Below are positions 1,617-7,940 of a stretch of 33,631 nt of DNA, in pieces. Under the pieces are notes generated by a model, which was not told the DNA's origin, searched no databases, and saw nothing but the letters and a program-made list of their open reading frames with translations. How positions within the stretch are numbered: position 1 is the stretch's first letter; each line of letters starts with the position of its first letter. A program made the position numbers and the translations under genes. This stretch comes from Candidatus Dadabacteria bacterium (GTDB lineage: Bacteria; Desulfobacterota_D; UBA1144; Nemesobacterales; Nemesobacteraceae), in contig JAJDTG010000018.1 in NCBI GenBank assembly GCA_022827275.1, positions 1 to 33,631 on the forward strand, read 5' to 3'.

Positions 1617-1662
1617 ATTACCTCCCCGGATCCGTTGCTGTTTTTACCGGCGCATAGGCTTT
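1617..1662. repeat. 46-bp target-site duplication, left copy
   Basis: This sequence is repeated perfectly at 3577-3622 and directly abuts the left terminal inverted repeat of the IS1634-type element. It contains the phr ribosome-binding region. Long target duplications are a known trait of the IS1634 family. Confidence 0.9.
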
Positions 1663-3576
1663 CCTGACTTCGACGGTTTAGAGTTGTAACGTACTGGAAT
1701 CACACGATCCGAAGTCGTTGGAGTCACTACACGGCATATGGGTTAACGGTATTTTTCCAGGTAATTTACAACTTCAACGGAGGGTCAACCGGCACTGTCT
1801 CCCCACTCAGCCTGCATCCGGCCGTGGCGTACAGAAGACGCTGGGTCTTCGTACTGCTTGAAGGAACCAGGTACTGCTTCCCGTTTCCTTCGTCCCGAAG
1901 CAAAGAAACCTCCACGTTCCCAAGTTCCCTGAGTATAGTCTGCTCACTTAACGCATCCTGCGCCGGATGGGAACGGTTGTGCTTCCAGCGCAGTATCCGA
2001 AGCATCGCGAACGCCACAAAGCAGATGGCCACGTGAGCCCGCACCCGACGCTCCGTCCAGTGAAACACAGGCCTCACCGCCATAGTATGCTTCATCACCC
2101 GGAAACTCTCCTCTATCCTACAAAGCTCCCCGTAGTAACCGTAAACTTCCTCAGCTGAATACCTGTCCCTATCAAGGCTTGTCCACACCCCATGGAGTCC
2201 GTCGAACTGCTCATCCCTCCTTATCGCCTCTTCGTTTATCGATACGGCCCCCGCCTCCACCTTCAGATAACGTCCCCGCCGCCCGCTTCCCTTTATCCCT
2301 TCACCGAGACGCTTCCGAGCCTTCTCCACCGCAGCCTCGCGATCAAGGGCGTCCTTGCGGGCACGCTTCGCGCAACGGCGCAGCACAAGCCTCCTGCCCC
2401 CTATATCAAGATCCCCCACCTTCCTCTCATCCCCAGCTTCCTCCCACTGCTCCCAGTTAACCACCTTCTTCTCCGATTCCTTCCCGAGCCTGCGAAGCCG
2501 TGCCGCTACCACCCACTCACACCCCCTCCTCTCAAGCTCCTCCAGGTTATCCCCGCTCCCCATCGCCGCGTCAGCCACTACCACCACCCTCTCAATGTCA
2601 AAACGCTCCCTCAGCCCCTCAAGCGCGGGCTCAAGAGTACTCACGTCCGCTGTGTTCCCCGCAAACAGTTCATACCCTATCGGCAGCCCCTCCGTGGTTT
2701 GCATAAGAGCCAGTACAACCTGCACCCTCTGCGGCTTCCCGTCCTTGCTCCACCCCTTCCTGCGAAGCGTATCCTCCCCTTCGCTCGCGAACGACAGCGT
2801 AGTGACGTCGAAAAACACAACCTCAACCTTCCCCCCAAGCAACCCCATAACCTCCCTTGACACTGTCCTCTGCAAAGAATCAATGCGCCTCTCATCCACC
2901 CTGTCCATCATCCTGTAGAACTTCTCCACCGACACTTCCACCCCGTGGTCCCACGACAGCCTCGCGTGGGCGCTTTTGCTCTGCCCCGGAGCTGCAAGCC
3001 GCATCATAACCGCCTGCTCAAACAACCGCGCGCTCATCCGATGACGGGCCCCCCACACCCTGTCAAACCCCAGCTGGCGGTAAAGTTCTCCGAACACCTC
3101 GTGGAAACCCACCGTTAAACGCTTCTGCTCCTTGAGCAGCCGGGCGTTGGCTATGGGAAGGGGCCTCTCTTCCTGCTTTGCTCTGCGGGACTCCATAACT
3201 ATCTTTGCCACGGTGTCCGGGGGAAACAGCGAAGGCTTCATGTCGTGAACAAGCTTCTGCTTCTCTATCTCCGCTATGCGAACCAGCTCGTCAAGAGCGG
3301 AGCCCGGGGGAGCGGAGCCCATGTTGCGGACGATTCTCTGGCGGGGCTTGCCCTGGGAGTTGCGGTAGGACTCCACTATCTGCACTCCGAGGTTCTCTGT
3401 GTTTTTGCGTTTGACTGTGCGAACGAACATGGAGAGAAGAGTAACTGGAGCCGCGAGAGAAGTCAATAGGCAGGCACATGCAGACACTACAAGACGCTTT
3501 TTGAAAAACCAAAAATAAAAAACACCAATATCAGTCAGTTACAACACCGGGGAAATTCTAAACCGTCGAAGTCAGG
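1663..3576. mobile_element. IS1634-family insertion sequence, complete (1,914 bp)
   Basis: The element is bounded by perfect 20-bp terminal inverted repeats: CCTGACTTCGACGG... at 1663-1682 and its complement at 3557-3576. A further shared GTTGTAAC lies inside each end (1683-1690; 3538-3545, inverted). It carries one transposase gene on the minus strand and is flanked by 46-bp perfect direct repeats. IS1634 itself was described as making long, variable direct repeats, so the family assignment and the flanks agree. Its coding sequence is more GC-rich, with C-rich codon choice, than the neighbouring genes, suggesting recent arrival. The intact ends, intact reading frame and undecayed duplication indicate a young and probably functional copy. 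Confidence 0.92.
1766..3430 (-). CDS. IS1634-family (IS4-like) DDE transposase
   Basis: This is the transposase of the surrounding insertion sequence; it cuts and joins element ends in an RNase H-fold DDE reaction. From the chosen ATG (3430) it is 554 residues. The frame could open further upstream (GTG at 3487, 19 more residues), but those residues look unlike family members, and homologues usually begin near the MFVRTVKRK segment. No good ribosome-binding site marks either start. Catalytic residues can be seen, numbered from 3487: D227 in VVFFDVTTLSF, D306 in VVVVADAAMG, and E459/E460 in CRIEESFRVMKH, which is the YREK-like signature region. The large insertion between the second Asp and the Glu is beta-strand rich, as in IS4-like enzymes. 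No frameshift or missing catalytic residue is seen. Confidence 0.9.
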   Translation of the reverse strand: MFVRTVKRKNTENLGVQIVESYRNSQGKPRQRIVRNMGSAPPGSALDELVRIAEIEKQKLVHDMKPSLFPPDTVAKIVMESRRAKQEERPLPIANARLLKEQKRLTVGFHEVFGELYRQLGFDRVWGARHRMSARLFEQAVMMRLAAPGQSKSAHARLSWDHGVEVSVEKFYRMMDRVDERRIDSLQRTVSREVMGLLGGKVEVVFFDVTTLSFASEGEDTLRRKGWSKDGKPQRVQVVLALMQTTEGLPIGYELFAGNTADVSTLEPALEGLRERFDIERVVVVADAAMGSGDNLEELERRGCEWVVAARLRRLGKESEKKVVNWEQWEEAGDERKVGDLDIGGRRLVLRRCAKRARKDALDREAAVEKARKRLGEGIKGSGRRGRYLKVEAGAVSINEEAIRRDEQFDGLHGVWTSLDRDRYSAEEVYGYYGELCRIEESFRVMKHTMAVRPVFHWTERRVRAHVAICFVAFAMLRILRWKHNRSHPAQDALSEQTILRELGNVEVSLLRDEGNGKQYLVPSSSTKTQRLLYATAGCRLSGETVPVDPPLKL

Positions 3577-3622
3577 ATTACCTCCCCGGATCCGTTGCTG
3601 TTTTTACCGGCGCATAGGCTTT
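3577..3622. repeat. 46-bp target-site duplication, right copy
   Basis: Perfect copy of 1617-1662. Its last base is the first base of the era -35 hexamer, so the duplication left the era promoter complete. It also carries an orphan copy of the phr ribosome-binding region. Confidence 0.9.
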
Positions 3623-3690: not shown

Positions 3691-4596
3691 ATGCCGGATG
3701 AGCAATTAAGAGAGAACTTCAGATCGGGATTTATCTCCGTGGTTGGACGGCCCAACGTGGGCAAGTCCACTCTTGTAAACTCGATTGTCGGAGAAAAAGT
3801 TTCGGCCGTTTCGGATAAGCCGAGTACTACCAGGAACAGAATTCTGGGAGTAAAGACTTTTGATGATTCGCAGCTGGTTTTTCTTGATACCCCAGGTGTT
3901 TACAGGGAAAAAAGCAGGCTTGGAAAATCCATGGCCCGAGCTGTAAGCGGGGCTCTTTCGGACGCTGATCTGGTGGCGTTTGTTACGGATGTCGAAAAGC
4001 CTTTCGGGGCGGCTGATGAATCCATACTGAAAATGCTCAGGAAACCTTCCTTGTTTGTCGTAAACAAGATCGACAAGGTAAGGAAATCAAAGCTCCTGTC
4101 TGTACTTTCAACTGCCGAGAGATTCTCTGAGAAATTCCTCGAAATAGTCCCCATCTCGGCTCTTACAGGCGACGGGGTGGAGCGGCTCACGCAGCTTCTC
4201 AAGAAACACCTGCCGGAAGGCCCGAAATATTTTCCCGATGATATTTTCACGGATCAGCCCGAGATTTTCTACGTAAGCGAACTCATAAGGGAGAAGGTGT
4301 TCAACCTCACGCGAAAAGAGATTCCCTACAAGGTTGCCGTGGTGGTTTCGGGGTTCAGCGAGGACACGGAACGGAACCTTATAAGGATAAACGCGGAAAT
4401 CTACGTCGAGAGAAAAAGTCACAAGGGAATTCTTATAGGAAAGGGCGGAGGTATGCTCAAGCAGATCGGCTCAGAGGCCAGGGTCGACATTGAAAAAATA
4501 CTTGGGGTGAAGCTCTTTCTTGAACTCTGGGTCAAGGTGAAGGAGAACTGGACGCAGAGCGATTTTCTGATAAGGGAGTTCGGTTACGGGGACTGA
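3691..4596 (+). CDS. era: GTPase Era, 16S rRNA/30S assembly factor
   Basis: Era binds the 3' end of 16S rRNA and helps mature the small ribosomal subunit. The 301-residue length is normal. The N-terminal GTPase domain shows G1 GRPNVGKST (about 19-27), the switch I region KPSTTRNRILG, G3 DTPG (about 67-70), G4 NKID (about 134-137) and G5 SALTGDGV. The C-terminal KH domain carries the RNA-binding GxxG segment GILIGKGGGMLKQIG and the family tail ELWVKVKENW, ending FGYGD. The ATG at 3691 is preceded by AGAGGT. A diverged fragment of this same gene's 3' part is present about 1.2 kb downstream, at 5760-5873. Confidence 0.97.
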   Translation: MPDEQLRENFRSGFISVVGRPNVGKSTLVNSIVGEKVSAVSDKPSTTRNRILGVKTFDDSQLVFLDTPGVYREKSRLGKSMARAVSGALSDADLVAFVTDVEKPFGAADESILKMLRKPSLFVVNKIDKVRKSKLLSVLSTAERFSEKFLEIVPISALTGDGVERLTQLLKKHLPEGPKYFPDDIFTDQPEIFYVSELIREKVFNLTRKEIPYKVAVVVSGFSEDTERNLIRINAEIYVERKSHKGILIGKGGGMLKQIGSEARVDIEKILGVKLFLELWVKVKENWTQSDFLIREFGYGD

Positions 4597-4688
4597 ACGG
4601 AAAAATCCCTGCCCGCCTAATGGAAAGACGAGGCTTACCGTCATCTCGTTCTGCTGCGCCGGGAGCTTCCTGCACGGATGTTTTCACG

Positions 4689-4729
4689 TTGACAGTGTTT
4701 TTTTGGAGTTACAATGTTACTATGTAACA
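4689..4729 (+). promoter_or_regulatory. Promoter and palindromic operator of the antitoxin-PIN operon
   Basis: TTGACA at 4689-4694 is followed by TACAAT at 4710-4715, a short 15-bp spacing. Immediately after it is a perfect inverted repeat, TGTTAC-tat-GTAACA, at 4715-4729, with an additional GTTAC at 4708-4712. A palindrome overlapping the promoter start region is what an autoregulating antitoxin needs. The identity of the binder is inference. Confidence 0.5.
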
Positions 4730-4744
4730 ATTGCGAGGTGATTT

Positions 4745-5338
4745 ATGCCGGTAATAAGAATATCGGATGAAACCCTGCGGCGTCTTAAAACTTGGGCCGA
4801 ACCCTTGGAAGACAGCGCGGAATCAGCAATGAGCAAGGCTCTTGATGCGGCGGAGAGGATGCGCCGCACCTCGACCCGGACTCAGACGGAACCGGAGACT
4901 GTGAAAACCCGAGCCCTCGATAAACGTTCCGGTGTTGAATCCGCCGAGAAACCTTCGGGAAAAGAGTTTCGAAAGCCTTTGCTGCGGACGATTTATGAAA
5001 TGGGAGGGTCGGCGCGAACGAGAGACCTGTATCCGGTCATGGAGAAACACATGACGGCAGTTTTGCTGCCTGGAGACTTTAAGAATTTTTCTTTTGGGGA
5101 CAGGAGGTGGCGCAACTCCGTCCGCCGGGAGCGCTTGAAGTTGGTCAATGAAGGCTACCTGCGGGACGATTCACCTCAAGGAATCTGGGAGCTGTCTGAC
5201 AAGGGAAGCAAGTTGATCGAGAAAATAGTCACTGAGCCACCAGAGTCGTTCATCAAGCACCTGCTTTCCATTCCGGCTGTCGGTGACGATGCCGACTTTG
5301 ACCGCGACCCATCGCAACCGCGCACGGTCAGGTTATGA
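4745..5338 (+). CDS. Putative antitoxin: N-terminal RHH-like segment plus Mrr_N-type winged helix
   Basis: The 197-residue protein begins with a short beta strand and helix (MPVIRISDETLRRLKTWAEP, 1-20) resembling the ribbon-helix-helix segment of SeqA-like regulators. A charged linker (about 45-80) follows. Then comes a domain (about 78-160) resembling the winged-helix N-terminal domain of Mrr-type restriction proteins, with RRWRNSVRRERLKLVNEGYL and GIWELSDKG as its most typical parts. Its stop overlaps the start of the PIN gene by 4 bp, so the two are translationally coupled. GAGGTG lies 5 bases before the ATG. By position and pairing it is most likely the DNA-binding antitoxin that neutralises the PIN ribonuclease and represses the operon at the palindrome upstream. 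No Mrr nuclease domain is present. A stand-alone regulator is the alternative. Confidence 0.65.
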   Translation: MPVIRISDETLRRLKTWAEPLEDSAESAMSKALDAAERMRRTSTRTQTEPETVKTRALDKRSGVESAEKPSGKEFRKPLLRTIYEMGGSARTRDLYPVMEKHMTAVLLPGDFKNFSFGDRRWRNSVRRERLKLVNEGYLRDDSPQGIWELSDKGSKLIEKIVTEPPESFIKHLLSIPAVGDDADFDRDPSQPRTVRL

Positions 5339-5751
5339 GCTACTTGCTAGATACCGACATAATATCCGAGCTTCGGAAACGTGACCGGGCGAACCCACGC
5401 GTTGTCAGTTGGTTTGAAGAACGCAGACCATCCGAGTTGTTTCTGAGTGTTCTGACTATCGGCGAACTGAGGCAAGGTGTTGAGCGGGTTCGCAGACGGG
5501 ATTCTATTTCGGCCGAAAATCTGGATTGGTGGCTTAACCTCACGGTGCTTGAATTTCAGGATCGCATCATTGATGTGGACATGGCCATAGCGGAACGATG
5601 GGGACGACTTGGAGTACCTGACCCTGTCCCAAAAATTGACGGTCTGATTGCAGCTACGGCACTCGAAAGAGACCTTGTAGTCGTAACTCGAAATGAAAAG
5701 CATATGGCTCTTGCGGGTGTACGCTATCTTAACCCCTTTAATGCCGACTGA
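5335..5751 (+). CDS. PIN-domain ribonuclease toxin (VapC/FitB type)
   Basis: VapC/FitB-type toxins are Mg-dependent ribonucleases that cut specific RNAs unless bound by their antitoxin. This 138-residue protein has the usual length and a full set of PIN landmarks: D6 in LLDTDIISELRK, E44 in TIGELRQG, D102 in KIDGLIAATA, and the final TRNEKH block, where N120 occupies the fourth position as in many FitB/VapC members. The TDxISELRK start and the GVPDPVPKIDG segment match the FitB branch. It overlaps the upstream regulator gene by 4 bp (ATGA). All catalytic acids seem intact, so it is probably active. Confidence 0.88.
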   Translation: MSYLLDTDIISELRKRDRANPRVVSWFEERRPSELFLSVLTIGELRQGVERVRRRDSISAENLDWWLNLTVLEFQDRIIDVDMAIAERWGRLGVPDPVPKIDGLIAATALERDLVVVTRNEKHMALAGVRYLNPFNAD

Positions 5752-5759
5752 GAAACGGA

Positions 5760-5873
5760 TCTTGCAGGATCTCTGAATAAATACCTGCCCGAGGGGCCGA
5801 AATACTCCTGCGACGACGTCTTCACGGGCCAGCCGGGATTTTCTGCATAAGCGAATTCGGTTACGGGGACTGA
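5760..5873 (+). pseudogene. Decayed 3' fragment of a second era copy
   Basis: Read in frame, 5761-5840 encodes a stretch alignable with the middle of Era: KYLPEGPKYSCDDVFTGQP against KHLPEGPKYFPDDIFTDQP. It then loses frame, and its last codons read EFGYGD followed by stop, exactly like the Era C-terminus. About 298 bp of era are missing in between. In the intact gene the two edges of the missing block both carry GATTTTCT (4263-4270 and 4561-4568), and the fragment has one copy of it (about 5837-5844). Nucleotide differences across the fragment show it is diverged from the local era and not a fresh duplication. Confidence 0.85.
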
Positions 5874-5886
5874 ACCCCAGGAGCCT

Positions 5887-6672
5887 TTATTCTCCCTTGA
5901 AAACCGGTTTTCTCTTCTCGAGAAAAGCTTTTTTCCCTTCCTTGGAGTCGCTGCTTTCCCTCACCTCGGCGAAAAGGGACCTTATGAGTTCTTCATTTTC
6001 TTCTGATAGCGGCCCCCCTTGTTCCCAGATGTTTATCATCTTTTTCATCGATATCATGGAGAGCGGGGCGTTTTCGCTTATTTCCTTGGCAAGCCCGTAG
6101 GTGAACTCTTCAAGCTTGTCTCTTTTTACAACGTGGTCGACAAGCCCTTTCTCCAGGGCCCTTTCGGCGTTAATGGGGTTTCCGGTGAGAAAAAGCTCTC
6201 TTGTAAACCCGGGACCCACCAAGTTAAGGAATTGCTTTATTCCGCTGTAATGATAAGTGACTCCCAGTTTTACGGGCGGGATTGCGAGTTTCGCGTCGTC
6301 GACGCATACTCTCAGGTCGCAAGTTACTGCGAGTTCAAGTCCCGCCCCGAAAGCATGACCGTTTATCATTGCTATTACGGGAAGAGGGTAGGCCTTGACC
6401 GCCCGCATGGCCTCGGTCAAGGGATGGCCGTTTTCTATCGCAATTTCTTCCTCGGATATTGCGGCTATATCGTATCCTGAGCAGAAAGCTCTATCCCCGC
6501 TTCCTCTTATAACAACACATCTGATTTCAGTGGTTTCTCCTAGCCTTAGAAATTCCTCGGTCAAAATTCCTAGAGTTTCTGGGGTAAGGGAGTTTCTTTT
6601 CTCAGGGTGATTGAGAGTAAGGGTGCAGACTGAACCCTTGGTCTTTACGAGAATTTCTTTGTTTTCGGCCAT
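5887..6672 (-). CDS. Enoyl-CoA hydratase/isomerase (crotonase) family protein
   Basis: Crotonase-fold enzymes act on acyl-CoA thioesters, typically hydrating 2-enoyl-CoA in beta-oxidation or related routes. The 261-residue length is normal. Visible family features are LNHPEKRNSLTPE (about 19-31), the CoA-binding and oxyanion-hole segment FCSGYDIAAI (about 62-71), and a second oxyanion region NGHAFGAGLELAVTCDLRV (about 104-122). The usual catalytic Glu positions in the following block are not clearly conserved: AIPPVKLGVTYHYSG departs from the classical PEIxLGxxPGxGG motif. This may therefore be an isomerase, a decarboxylase-like member or an enzyme with a different acyl substrate. The ATG at 6672 is followed by a conventional first strand. 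No operon partner from fatty-acid metabolism lies beside it. Confidence 0.88.
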   Translation of the reverse strand: MAENKEILVKTKGSVCTLTLNHPEKRNSLTPETLGILTEEFLRLGETTEIRCVVIRGSGDRAFCSGYDIAAISEEEIAIENGHPLTEAMRAVKAYPLPVIAMINGHAFGAGLELAVTCDLRVCVDDAKLAIPPVKLGVTYHYSGIKQFLNLVGPGFTRELFLTGNPINAERALEKGLVDHVVKRDKLEEFTYGLAKEISENAPLSMISMKKMINIWEQGGPLSEENEELIRSLFAEVRESSDSKEGKKAFLEKRKPVFKGE

Positions 6673-6803
6673 GGAGAAATTATATATTACCGAGGCTTGG
6701 TGTCTAAGTGCTATCTGGCTATAGAGCGAAGATGTTTTGCACTCTCGATTCTTTATAAGAGATGCGAAATGTGATTTAGGTAGAGAGTTAGGTTTTCTGA
6801 CAC

Positions 6804-7253
6804 CTAGAACACTTGCTTGAATTCATTAAGTATGTTTTGCCTAATGCTCGGACGAAGTCCTTCTCGCGTCATTACATCCACTTTGCATTTCAAGCTATCT
6901 TCAAGGAAGTACTTTACATCAACCAAATCGAGCAGGCTGAAGGAGACTTCCGGGTCGGTATCAATAAAAACATCTATATCACTTGTTGAAGTGTTTTCAT
7001 CTCGAACGGCTGAATCGAATAGGAAGATGGATTTGACTCCTCTGTCACGCAACGGTTTTTCCAAAGAAGAAATCTGTTTGTGGATTTCTTCTTTGGTTAA
7101 TGGTGTTGTCAAGGATGTATCAGTTGAGGTGTTGTCTCGTTTGACTAACAGCCGCAACGCCTCGCGAACTACTTCACTGGCATTGTTGTAAAGTCCGGAT
7201 GAAACCTTCTCCCGAATGAACTCTTCCAACTTGGGTGTGAGTGAAACATTCAT
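6804..7253 (-). CDS. ParD-like RHH domain fused to a minimal nucleotidyltransferase (MNT) domain
   Basis: Residues 1-40 (MNVSLTPKLEEFIREKVSSG...YNNASEVVREALRLLVKRD) look like a ParD/CopG ribbon-helix-helix antitoxin. Residues 53-149 form a pol-beta-type minimal nucleotidyltransferase: IFLFDSAVRDENTSTSDIDVFID, with D92 and D94 as the metal pair and D126 in CKVDVMT as the third acid. In the family the motif is normally GS; here position 80 is Asp (FDS), and the usual RG is RD, so nucleotide binding may be weakened. MNT proteins often act as antitoxins that modify a HEPN toxin, but no HEPN gene is next to this one. A TTG one codon upstream is possible, but the ATG at 7253 is preferred. The fusion suggests one polypeptide that both represses its promoter and has, or once had, nucleotidyl-transfer activity. 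Confidence 0.78.
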   Translation of the reverse strand: MNVSLTPKLEEFIREKVSSGLYNNASEVVREALRLLVKRDNTSTDTSLTTPLTKEEIHKQISSLEKPLRDRGVKSIFLFDSAVRDENTSTSDIDVFIDTDPEVSFSLLDLVDVKYFLEDSLKCKVDVMTREGLRPSIRQNILNEFKQVF

Positions 7254-7320
7254 CAATCTTTGCCTACGTTACAAAAGATACTTTGATAACAAGCTTTGTC
7301 AATCTTTGTTATAAAGATTG
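7254..7320 (-). promoter_or_regulatory. Promoter with repeated CAATCTTTG operator half-sites
   Basis: On the minus strand TTGACA (7302-7297) and TATCTT (7280-7275) are spaced by 16 bp, a good promoter for the RHH-MNT gene. Overlapping and just upstream of the -35 is a perfect 8-bp inverted repeat, CAATCTTT-gttat-AAAGATTG, at 7300-7320. A further CAATCTTTG copy abuts the start codon at 7254-7262. The arrangement fits autorepression by the RHH domain. Confidence 0.6.
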
Positions 7321-7406
7321 TTTTTTGGTATTTTATCTGCCAAGAATAATCTATTCTAAACTATCAGGAATACTTACAGAGTTAAATTTGCCAAAAGAGA
7401 AGGATT

Positions 7407-7940
7407 ATGAAAGAAAAGGAGACACCAAATAAGCGAGCCTACAGGGTGCTGTTTCTCTGCACGGGCAACTCGGCCCGTTCGATCATTGCAGAATCTCTTT
7501 TAAATCACAATAGCGGCGGAAGATTTGTCGGCTACAGCGCGGGCAGTCATCCTCGGGGAGAAGCCCACCCACTTGCTCTTGATCTCTTACTCAGCAAGGG
7601 ACACGATATTGAGAATCTGCGTTCCAAATCTTGGGATGAGTTTGAGGTTGAGGATGCTCCCTTGATGGATTTTGTCTTTACGGTATGTGACAACGCGGCG
7701 AATGAACCTTGTCCCATATGGCCGGGAAGGCCTGTGGTGGCTCACTGGGGCCTTGCGGACCCCGCAGGCGTTGAGGGAACTGAAACTGAGCAACGAAAAG
7801 CTTTTGAGAGAGCCTACGAGTTACTCAAAGAGCGTGTCCTTGCGTTTCTGGCTCTTCCGTTTGACTCGCTTGACAGCGTGGAACTTCGTGAGAGACTTGA
7901 AAAGATAGGTGTTTCTGGATCCGGAACGGACGGAGAATAG
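7407..7940 (+). CDS. ArsC-like arsenate reductase / low-molecular-weight phosphatase fold protein
   Basis: The N-terminal phosphate loop is clear: VLFLCTGNSARSIIAESLL (about 15-33), with the nucleophilic Cys followed by the signature Arg. The later block VCDNAANEPCPIWPG (about 92-106) is typical of the ArsC branch that reduces arsenate to arsenite. It supplies the further Cys residues used to pass electrons to thioredoxin or a similar thiol. Also typical are the HWGLADPAG segment and the C-terminal helix. At 177 residues it is slightly longer than usual because of a tail after about residue 160. The ATG has AGAAGGA in front. No arsenic regulator or efflux gene is adjacent, so the resistance role is inferred from the family. 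Confidence 0.82.
   Translation: MKEKETPNKRAYRVLFLCTGNSARSIIAESLLNHNSGGRFVGYSAGSHPRGEAHPLALDLLLSKGHDIENLRSKSWDEFEVEDAPLMDFVFTVCDNAANEPCPIWPGRPVVAHWGLADPAGVEGTETEQRKAFERAYELLKERVLAFLALPFDSLDSVELRERLEKIGVSGSGTDGE

Follow-up and report, generated by a model that had tools for sequence, protein, structure and literature searches.

The question raised by this locus is how a small toxin-antitoxin pair came to reside between the essential era gene and a decayed second copy of the last third of the same gene, and what that second copy tells about the origin of the pair. The window analysed is the 33,631-nucleotide contig C22 (JAJDTG010000018.1, assembly GCA_022827275.1) of a Candidatus Dadabacteria genome of 1.77 Mb, designated G000. 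The intact era gene is located on the forward strand at 3691..4596, encodes a protein of 301 amino acids with the Pfam domains MMR_HSR1 and KH_2, and constitutes the left copy of the duplicated gene end. It is followed by a cargo-specific left flank (4597..4690), which bears no relation to the native era-ech spacer, by the two genes of the pair and by the era remnant, beyond which the ech gene for enoyl-CoA hydratase (5887..6672, reverse strand) is the convergent neighbour that borders era at the empty site of congeners.

The stretch of era copied to the right of the cargo comprises ~416 bp (4183..4598, forward strand); it starts at codon ~165 and extends 2 nt beyond the stop codon. The remnant, at window positions 5756-5873, has the same limits within era. 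Self-comparison of the window aligns era 4183-4284 with 5756-5858 (73% identity over 104 bp, E 2e-11), and era 4570-4598 matches 5847-5875 (93% over 29 bp). The decayed central part (5756..5846, forward strand), equivalent to era 4183 to about 4272, is shifted in frame by a 1-nt deletion and contains an in-frame stop, with the peptide LAGSLNKYLPEGPKYSCDDVFTGQP still aligning with LTQLLKKHLPEGPKYFPDDIFTDQP of era codons 166-190. It meets the native 3' end of era (5847..5875, forward strand) at 12-bp imperfect repeats, GTAAGCGAACTC and ATAAGGGAGTTC, which implies a deletion of ~297 bp, and the remnant starts 4 nt from the toxin stop codon. The same arrangement and junctions are present in the independently assembled G009, a Candidatus Dadabacteria MAG (JAJDUA01) that is the sister of G000 and the closest to it of the genomes searched, so that they can be put down neither to chance nor to faulty assembly. 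No gene-end repeat like that of era was found at the other loci compared, including further PIN and IS loci, except at those covering the same locus in G000 and G009, and the other repeats at compared loci are IS target duplications or lie inside coding or tandem DNA. The left flank was also considered as another era remnant, and this was rejected as its alignment to era scores no better than shuffles.

The cargo consists of two genes only, without integrase, recombinase or transposase, and is sensibly assigned to a predicted type II toxin-antitoxin module of the VapBC/FitAB-like kind. The operon is bicistronic with the antitoxin first, and the two reading frames share 4 nt at the antitoxin stop and the toxin start, as is also the case in G009. 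The toxin gene (5335..5751, forward strand) encodes a VapC/FitB-like PIN-domain protein of 138 amino acids (PF01850, 5.2e-13), which is identical in G009 and whose closest solved structure is FitB (2h1c, E 2e-10); in the alignment to FitB, the acidic catalytic residues D6, E44 and D102 are conserved and the fourth position is N120, compared to D in FitB. The preceding gene (4745..5338, forward strand) encodes an antitoxin-like regulator of 197 amino acids, which contains an N-terminal segment resembling NF047386 (E 1e-8, below the cut-off), an Mrr_N-like winged helix at 74-159 (25.1 bits, under the Pfam cut-off of 29.5) and a FitA/VapB-like tail including FIKHLLSIPAVGDDADFDRD, the C-terminal tail being in common with a Pseudomonadales peptide. 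In its AlphaFold model the winged-helix core reaches a pLDDT of ~80 and the N-terminus and tail are poorly modelled, and the overall quality (mean pLDDT 60.6) was too poor for a fold search. The pair is like FitAB/VapBC in having a FitB-like PIN toxin, a 4-nt overlap with an upstream antitoxin of putative DNA-binding type and the tail FIKHLL.IP.VGDDADF, but differs in the length of the antitoxin, its Mrr_N-like winged helix and its other N-terminal segment, whereas the partners of the closest plasmid PIN relatives (L090 1277-1926 and L091 1289-1926) are of ~75 amino acids. Just upstream of the antitoxin gene, a stretch near-identical in G009 (4690..4744, forward strand) contains TTGACA, TACAAT and the palindrome GTTAC-TAT-GTAAC, and its reading as a promoter/operator is put forward as a suggestion because no promoter with a spacing of 16-18 nt came out of a consensus scan.

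The PIN toxin has more than 1000 plasmid relatives with less than 60% identity, and none in viral contigs. Two of them, the closest plasmid relatives named above, are located in restriction/defence operons, in Allochromatium vinosum pALVIN02 between methyltransferase and specificity-subunit genes. No full-length relative of the regulator was found outside G009 in the collections searched, and a search for its homologues in phages, plasmids and viral contigs yielded none of note and one weak plasmid match. A foreign composition of the cargo was discarded, since neither its GC nor its GC3 falls outside the range of the genes of the window.

To place the duplication among relatives, the search covered 13 congeners and a further 27 members of the order (41 genomes with G000). 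Twelve congeners, counting G000, have a readable era locus, G003 and G010 being without one. In 10 of these 12 (G001, G002, G004, G005, G006, G007, G008, G011, G012 and G013), era and ech adjoin, separated only by a few nucleotides of spacer, with neither cargo nor remnant, and the same is true of era next to ech in G014, which belongs to another genus of the family. Cargo and remnant occur together with identical junctions only in G000 and G009, and the module has no further carrier among the 41 genomes. The earlier sequence-only reading, that a gene-end duplication flanks the cargo, is thereby borne out. That reading had also held that a remnant beside era without any cargo would speak against it; this was looked for, and in congeners with a readable locus the remnant is always accompanied by the cargo, so that the fragment tracks the cargo perfectly. 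Its proposal of era as an acquisition hotspot did not hold up: there is one event in the genus, and no era repeat is present at 19 further loci of era in the remaining family and order, each with 0.7-1.5 kb of downstream sequence. Given that the remnant accompanies the cargo and that these 19 loci lack the repeat, era does not serve as a general site of acquisition; in about half of the 19, ech adjoins era or lies one gene further on. At one of the congener loci (G007:C5:108643-109525, L032), the era gene has several frameshifts and stops, yet its DNA is 89% identical to era of the window, and these frameshifts probably reflect an assembly rich in sequencing errors.

The side on which the native end of era is found could be established from the spacer. 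In ten congeners the era-ech junction has 81-88% identity to the 124 bp at 5837-5960, which comprise the remnant end and the spacer to ech, and the DNA after the intact era has no match to the native era-ech spacer. With the native end attached to the remnant and non-native DNA after the intact gene, the insert must have separated era from its native 3' flank. The exact C-terminus had been taken as part of a foreign segment; instead, the last 29 bp of the remnant, with the spacer that follows up to ech, represent the native end of era. Comparison with congener eras over 25 codons shows 9-11 differences at the 50 first and second positions of the remnant and 9-13 at its 25 third positions, as compared to about 1 and 5.5 differences among the congeners themselves. 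A congener copy that had undergone ~0.2 neutral changes per site would show just such differences, so that taken alone they do not show the foreign origin that had been supposed; the timing discussed below leaves import possible. The right copy is heavily decayed, and with regard to the identity of the two copies at insertion its divergence fits a native copy that decayed as well as an imported one.

A foreign era allele is present at this locus, but it is demonstrable in the 3' half of the intact gene and not in the remnant where it had been placed. Between G000 and G009, the 3' half of era reaches a four-fold site divergence of 0.39, compared to 0.11-0.12 in its 5' half, 0.10 in the antitoxin gene, 0.07 in the PIN gene, 0.11 in ech and 0.18 in two other genes. 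When compared to all congeners, the 3' half of G000 era (about 4101-4596) diverges by 0.30-0.46 at four-fold sites, other genes mostly by 0.12-0.35 (Fisher P down to 5e-6), whereas the 3' half of G009 era is normal. In trees, G000 pairs with G009 in the 5' half of era and departs from it in the 3' half with modest support (62-66). The left flank 4597-4690 is homologous in the two genomes but only ~68% identical. These comparisons indicate that 4101-4690, the era 3' half with the left flank, is a recombination tract from an unsampled lineage and the only demonstrably foreign era allele. As the divergent tract continues into the left flank of the cargo, its donor would have carried the same flank, which implies an unsampled cargo-bearing lineage. 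Raw identity (96-98% in the cassette, 92% in era) had hinted that G000 and G009 exchanged the cassette recently, and this was ruled out by four-fold sites, which put the cassette at background and the era 3' half as the outlier.

The same divergences bear on the age of the insertion. As the four-fold divergence of the antitoxin, PIN and ech genes is that of the era 5' half, it indicates that the cassette was inherited by both G000 and G009 and hence was present before their split. The two genomes are sisters (support 90) with a stem of 0.0096, on which 0.9 changes are expected at 50 first and second position sites, as compared to about 9 in the remnant (P of at least 9 changes, 5e-7). Up to the crown of the nine-genome clade the expectation is 1.4 (P 2e-5), and with inclusion of the preceding internal branch it becomes 10.3, which fits. 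This argument is based on 25 codons and assumes that four-fold rates hold for the remnant, and its neutral-site scaling factor of 1.9 is an estimate from pairwise overall and four-fold distances. Moreover, the remnants of G000 and G009 differ at 3 of 129 bp, fewer than a divergence of 0.10 predicts (P 7e-4), so that the clock of the remnant is not clean. With an estimated scaling factor and a remnant below the neutral rate, the old age of the insertion is treated as probable and not as proven. An independent sign of age is provided by the left flank, which exists as two alleles of genus-level divergence (~32%). Either the insertion would predate the nine-genome clade and have been followed by at least two losses, or a cassette that was already decayed would have been imported.

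Taken with the duplication, these data make it probable that a VapBC/FitAB-like module was inserted long ago, before G000 and G009 separated, with duplication of ~416 bp of its target, and was then lost elsewhere or spread by homologous recombination. Insertion of the toxin-antitoxin operon at the 3' end of era would have left ~416 bp of era on both sides, a product to which two routes may lead, namely insertion that duplicates a long target, or integration by a single crossover of DNA with an era 3' end. The left copy would keep era functional, and the redundant right copy beside ech would decay by substitutions, the frameshift and the 297-bp deletion between short repeats. Subsequent precise loss in at least two lineages by recombination between the repeats would leave no scar; alternatively to such losses, the old cassette may have reached the ancestor of G000 and G009 by homologous recombination. 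Later, the era 3' half and the cargo left flank of G000 would have been replaced by the divergent allele of an unsampled lineage with the same flank. Counting against old insertion are the two or more losses that it requires on the tree, and no known intermediate retains the second era end at full length.

The reading nearest to the earlier one is that a segment of an unsampled congener, with module and decayed remnant already in it, entered the ancestor of G000 and G009 by homologous recombination in era and ech. In its favour, the remnant had already decayed before the split, and the stem leaves too little room for this decay to have occurred in place; the tract in G000 attests to a divergent donor lineage with the cargo; and among congeners it is the most distant one, G005, that comes nearest to the central part of the remnant (80% versus 75-77%). 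However, no donor is known, the 41 genomes show the module in no third member, decay of a native copy explains the divergence equally, and the remnant end with the ech spacer is native, which leaves this import a doubtful though serious alternative. A tandem duplication of the era 3' end with later insertion of the module between the copies would give the same end product with a decayed right copy, but it is unlikely, as it needs two events, a remnant without cargo is seen in no congener, and the remnant begins almost exactly at the toxin stop codon.

It is also improbable that an IS1634-family element generated the long duplication, either carrying the module or being later replaced by it. 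Elements of this family produce long and variable target duplications of 8-514 bp (PMC2266710), a range that includes 416 bp, and in this genus they are active, with duplications of 46 bp upstream of era in G000 and of 84 bp in G009. In the window, however, a search tolerating up to 3 mismatches places the terminal inverted repeat of the local element at 1662 and 3577 and nowhere else, the cargo borders included; the cargo lacks the transposase, and its toxin gene stops 4 nt from the remnant. The absence of any trace of IS1634 ends on the era cargo ranks this route low. Site-specific integration of a small element through a 20-29 bp attachment site in the era 3' end would agree with the near-perfect 29-bp direct repeat that bounds the insert, but is very improbable, since there is no integrase and the central era piece, homologous over a further ~100 bp, is left unexplained.

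Insertion with a ~416-bp target duplication, the reading preferred above, resembles events known from restriction-modification systems (Nobusato et al. 2000 and Furuta et al. 2010, in the passages citing them in PMC3031569 and PMC3874152). In common with the cases as related there, an addiction-type selfish pair lies between long direct repeats with a single-copy empty site in relatives, and without transposase or inverted repeats. The era cargo has no integrase either, and the inverted repeats at it are weak, at chance level only. Unlike those cases, the era cargo is a PIN toxin-antitoxin pair, the repeat is ~416 bp as compared to the ~100 bp usually quoted, the right copy is heavily decayed, and the event is probably old. 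The event is best read as ordinary in kind, resembling known insertions with long target duplication, and well dated here. It would provide a clean, datable case of a chromosomal toxin-antitoxin pair settling beside an essential gene without breaking it, in which the gene end is duplicated, one copy stays whole and the other decays, and, in an uncultured phylum, would support carrying the long-target-duplication model over from restriction-modification systems and applying it to toxin-antitoxin modules. That toxin-antitoxin modules can in general, like restriction-modification systems, insert themselves into chromosomes with long target duplications, with a decayed gene-end scar downstream dating the insertion, is offered as a tentative and rather speculative extension. 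The locus also cautions that not every divergent gene remnant is a foreign allele.

Other mobile or accessory DNA was observed on both sides of the locus. Between the photolyase gene and era lies the IS1634-family element (1662-3577), a single copy in the genome, with a transposase gene on the reverse strand (1766-3487), 24-nt inverted repeats and a perfect 46-bp target duplication (1617-1662 and 3577-3622), and its relative elsewhere in G009 is bounded by a perfect 84-bp duplication (L094 1263-1346 and 3267-3350). On the other side, the ech-LMWP interval (6672-7407) contains at 6804-7256 a ParD-type RHH fused to an MNT-type nucleotidyltransferase, which is type VII antitoxin-like. A HEPN-looking partner of 113 amino acids is kept in this interval in G001, G008, G009 and G013 and missing in G000 and G012, and the interval is empty in G002, G004, G005 and G007 and occupied by other genes in G006 and G011, being far more variable than the era site.
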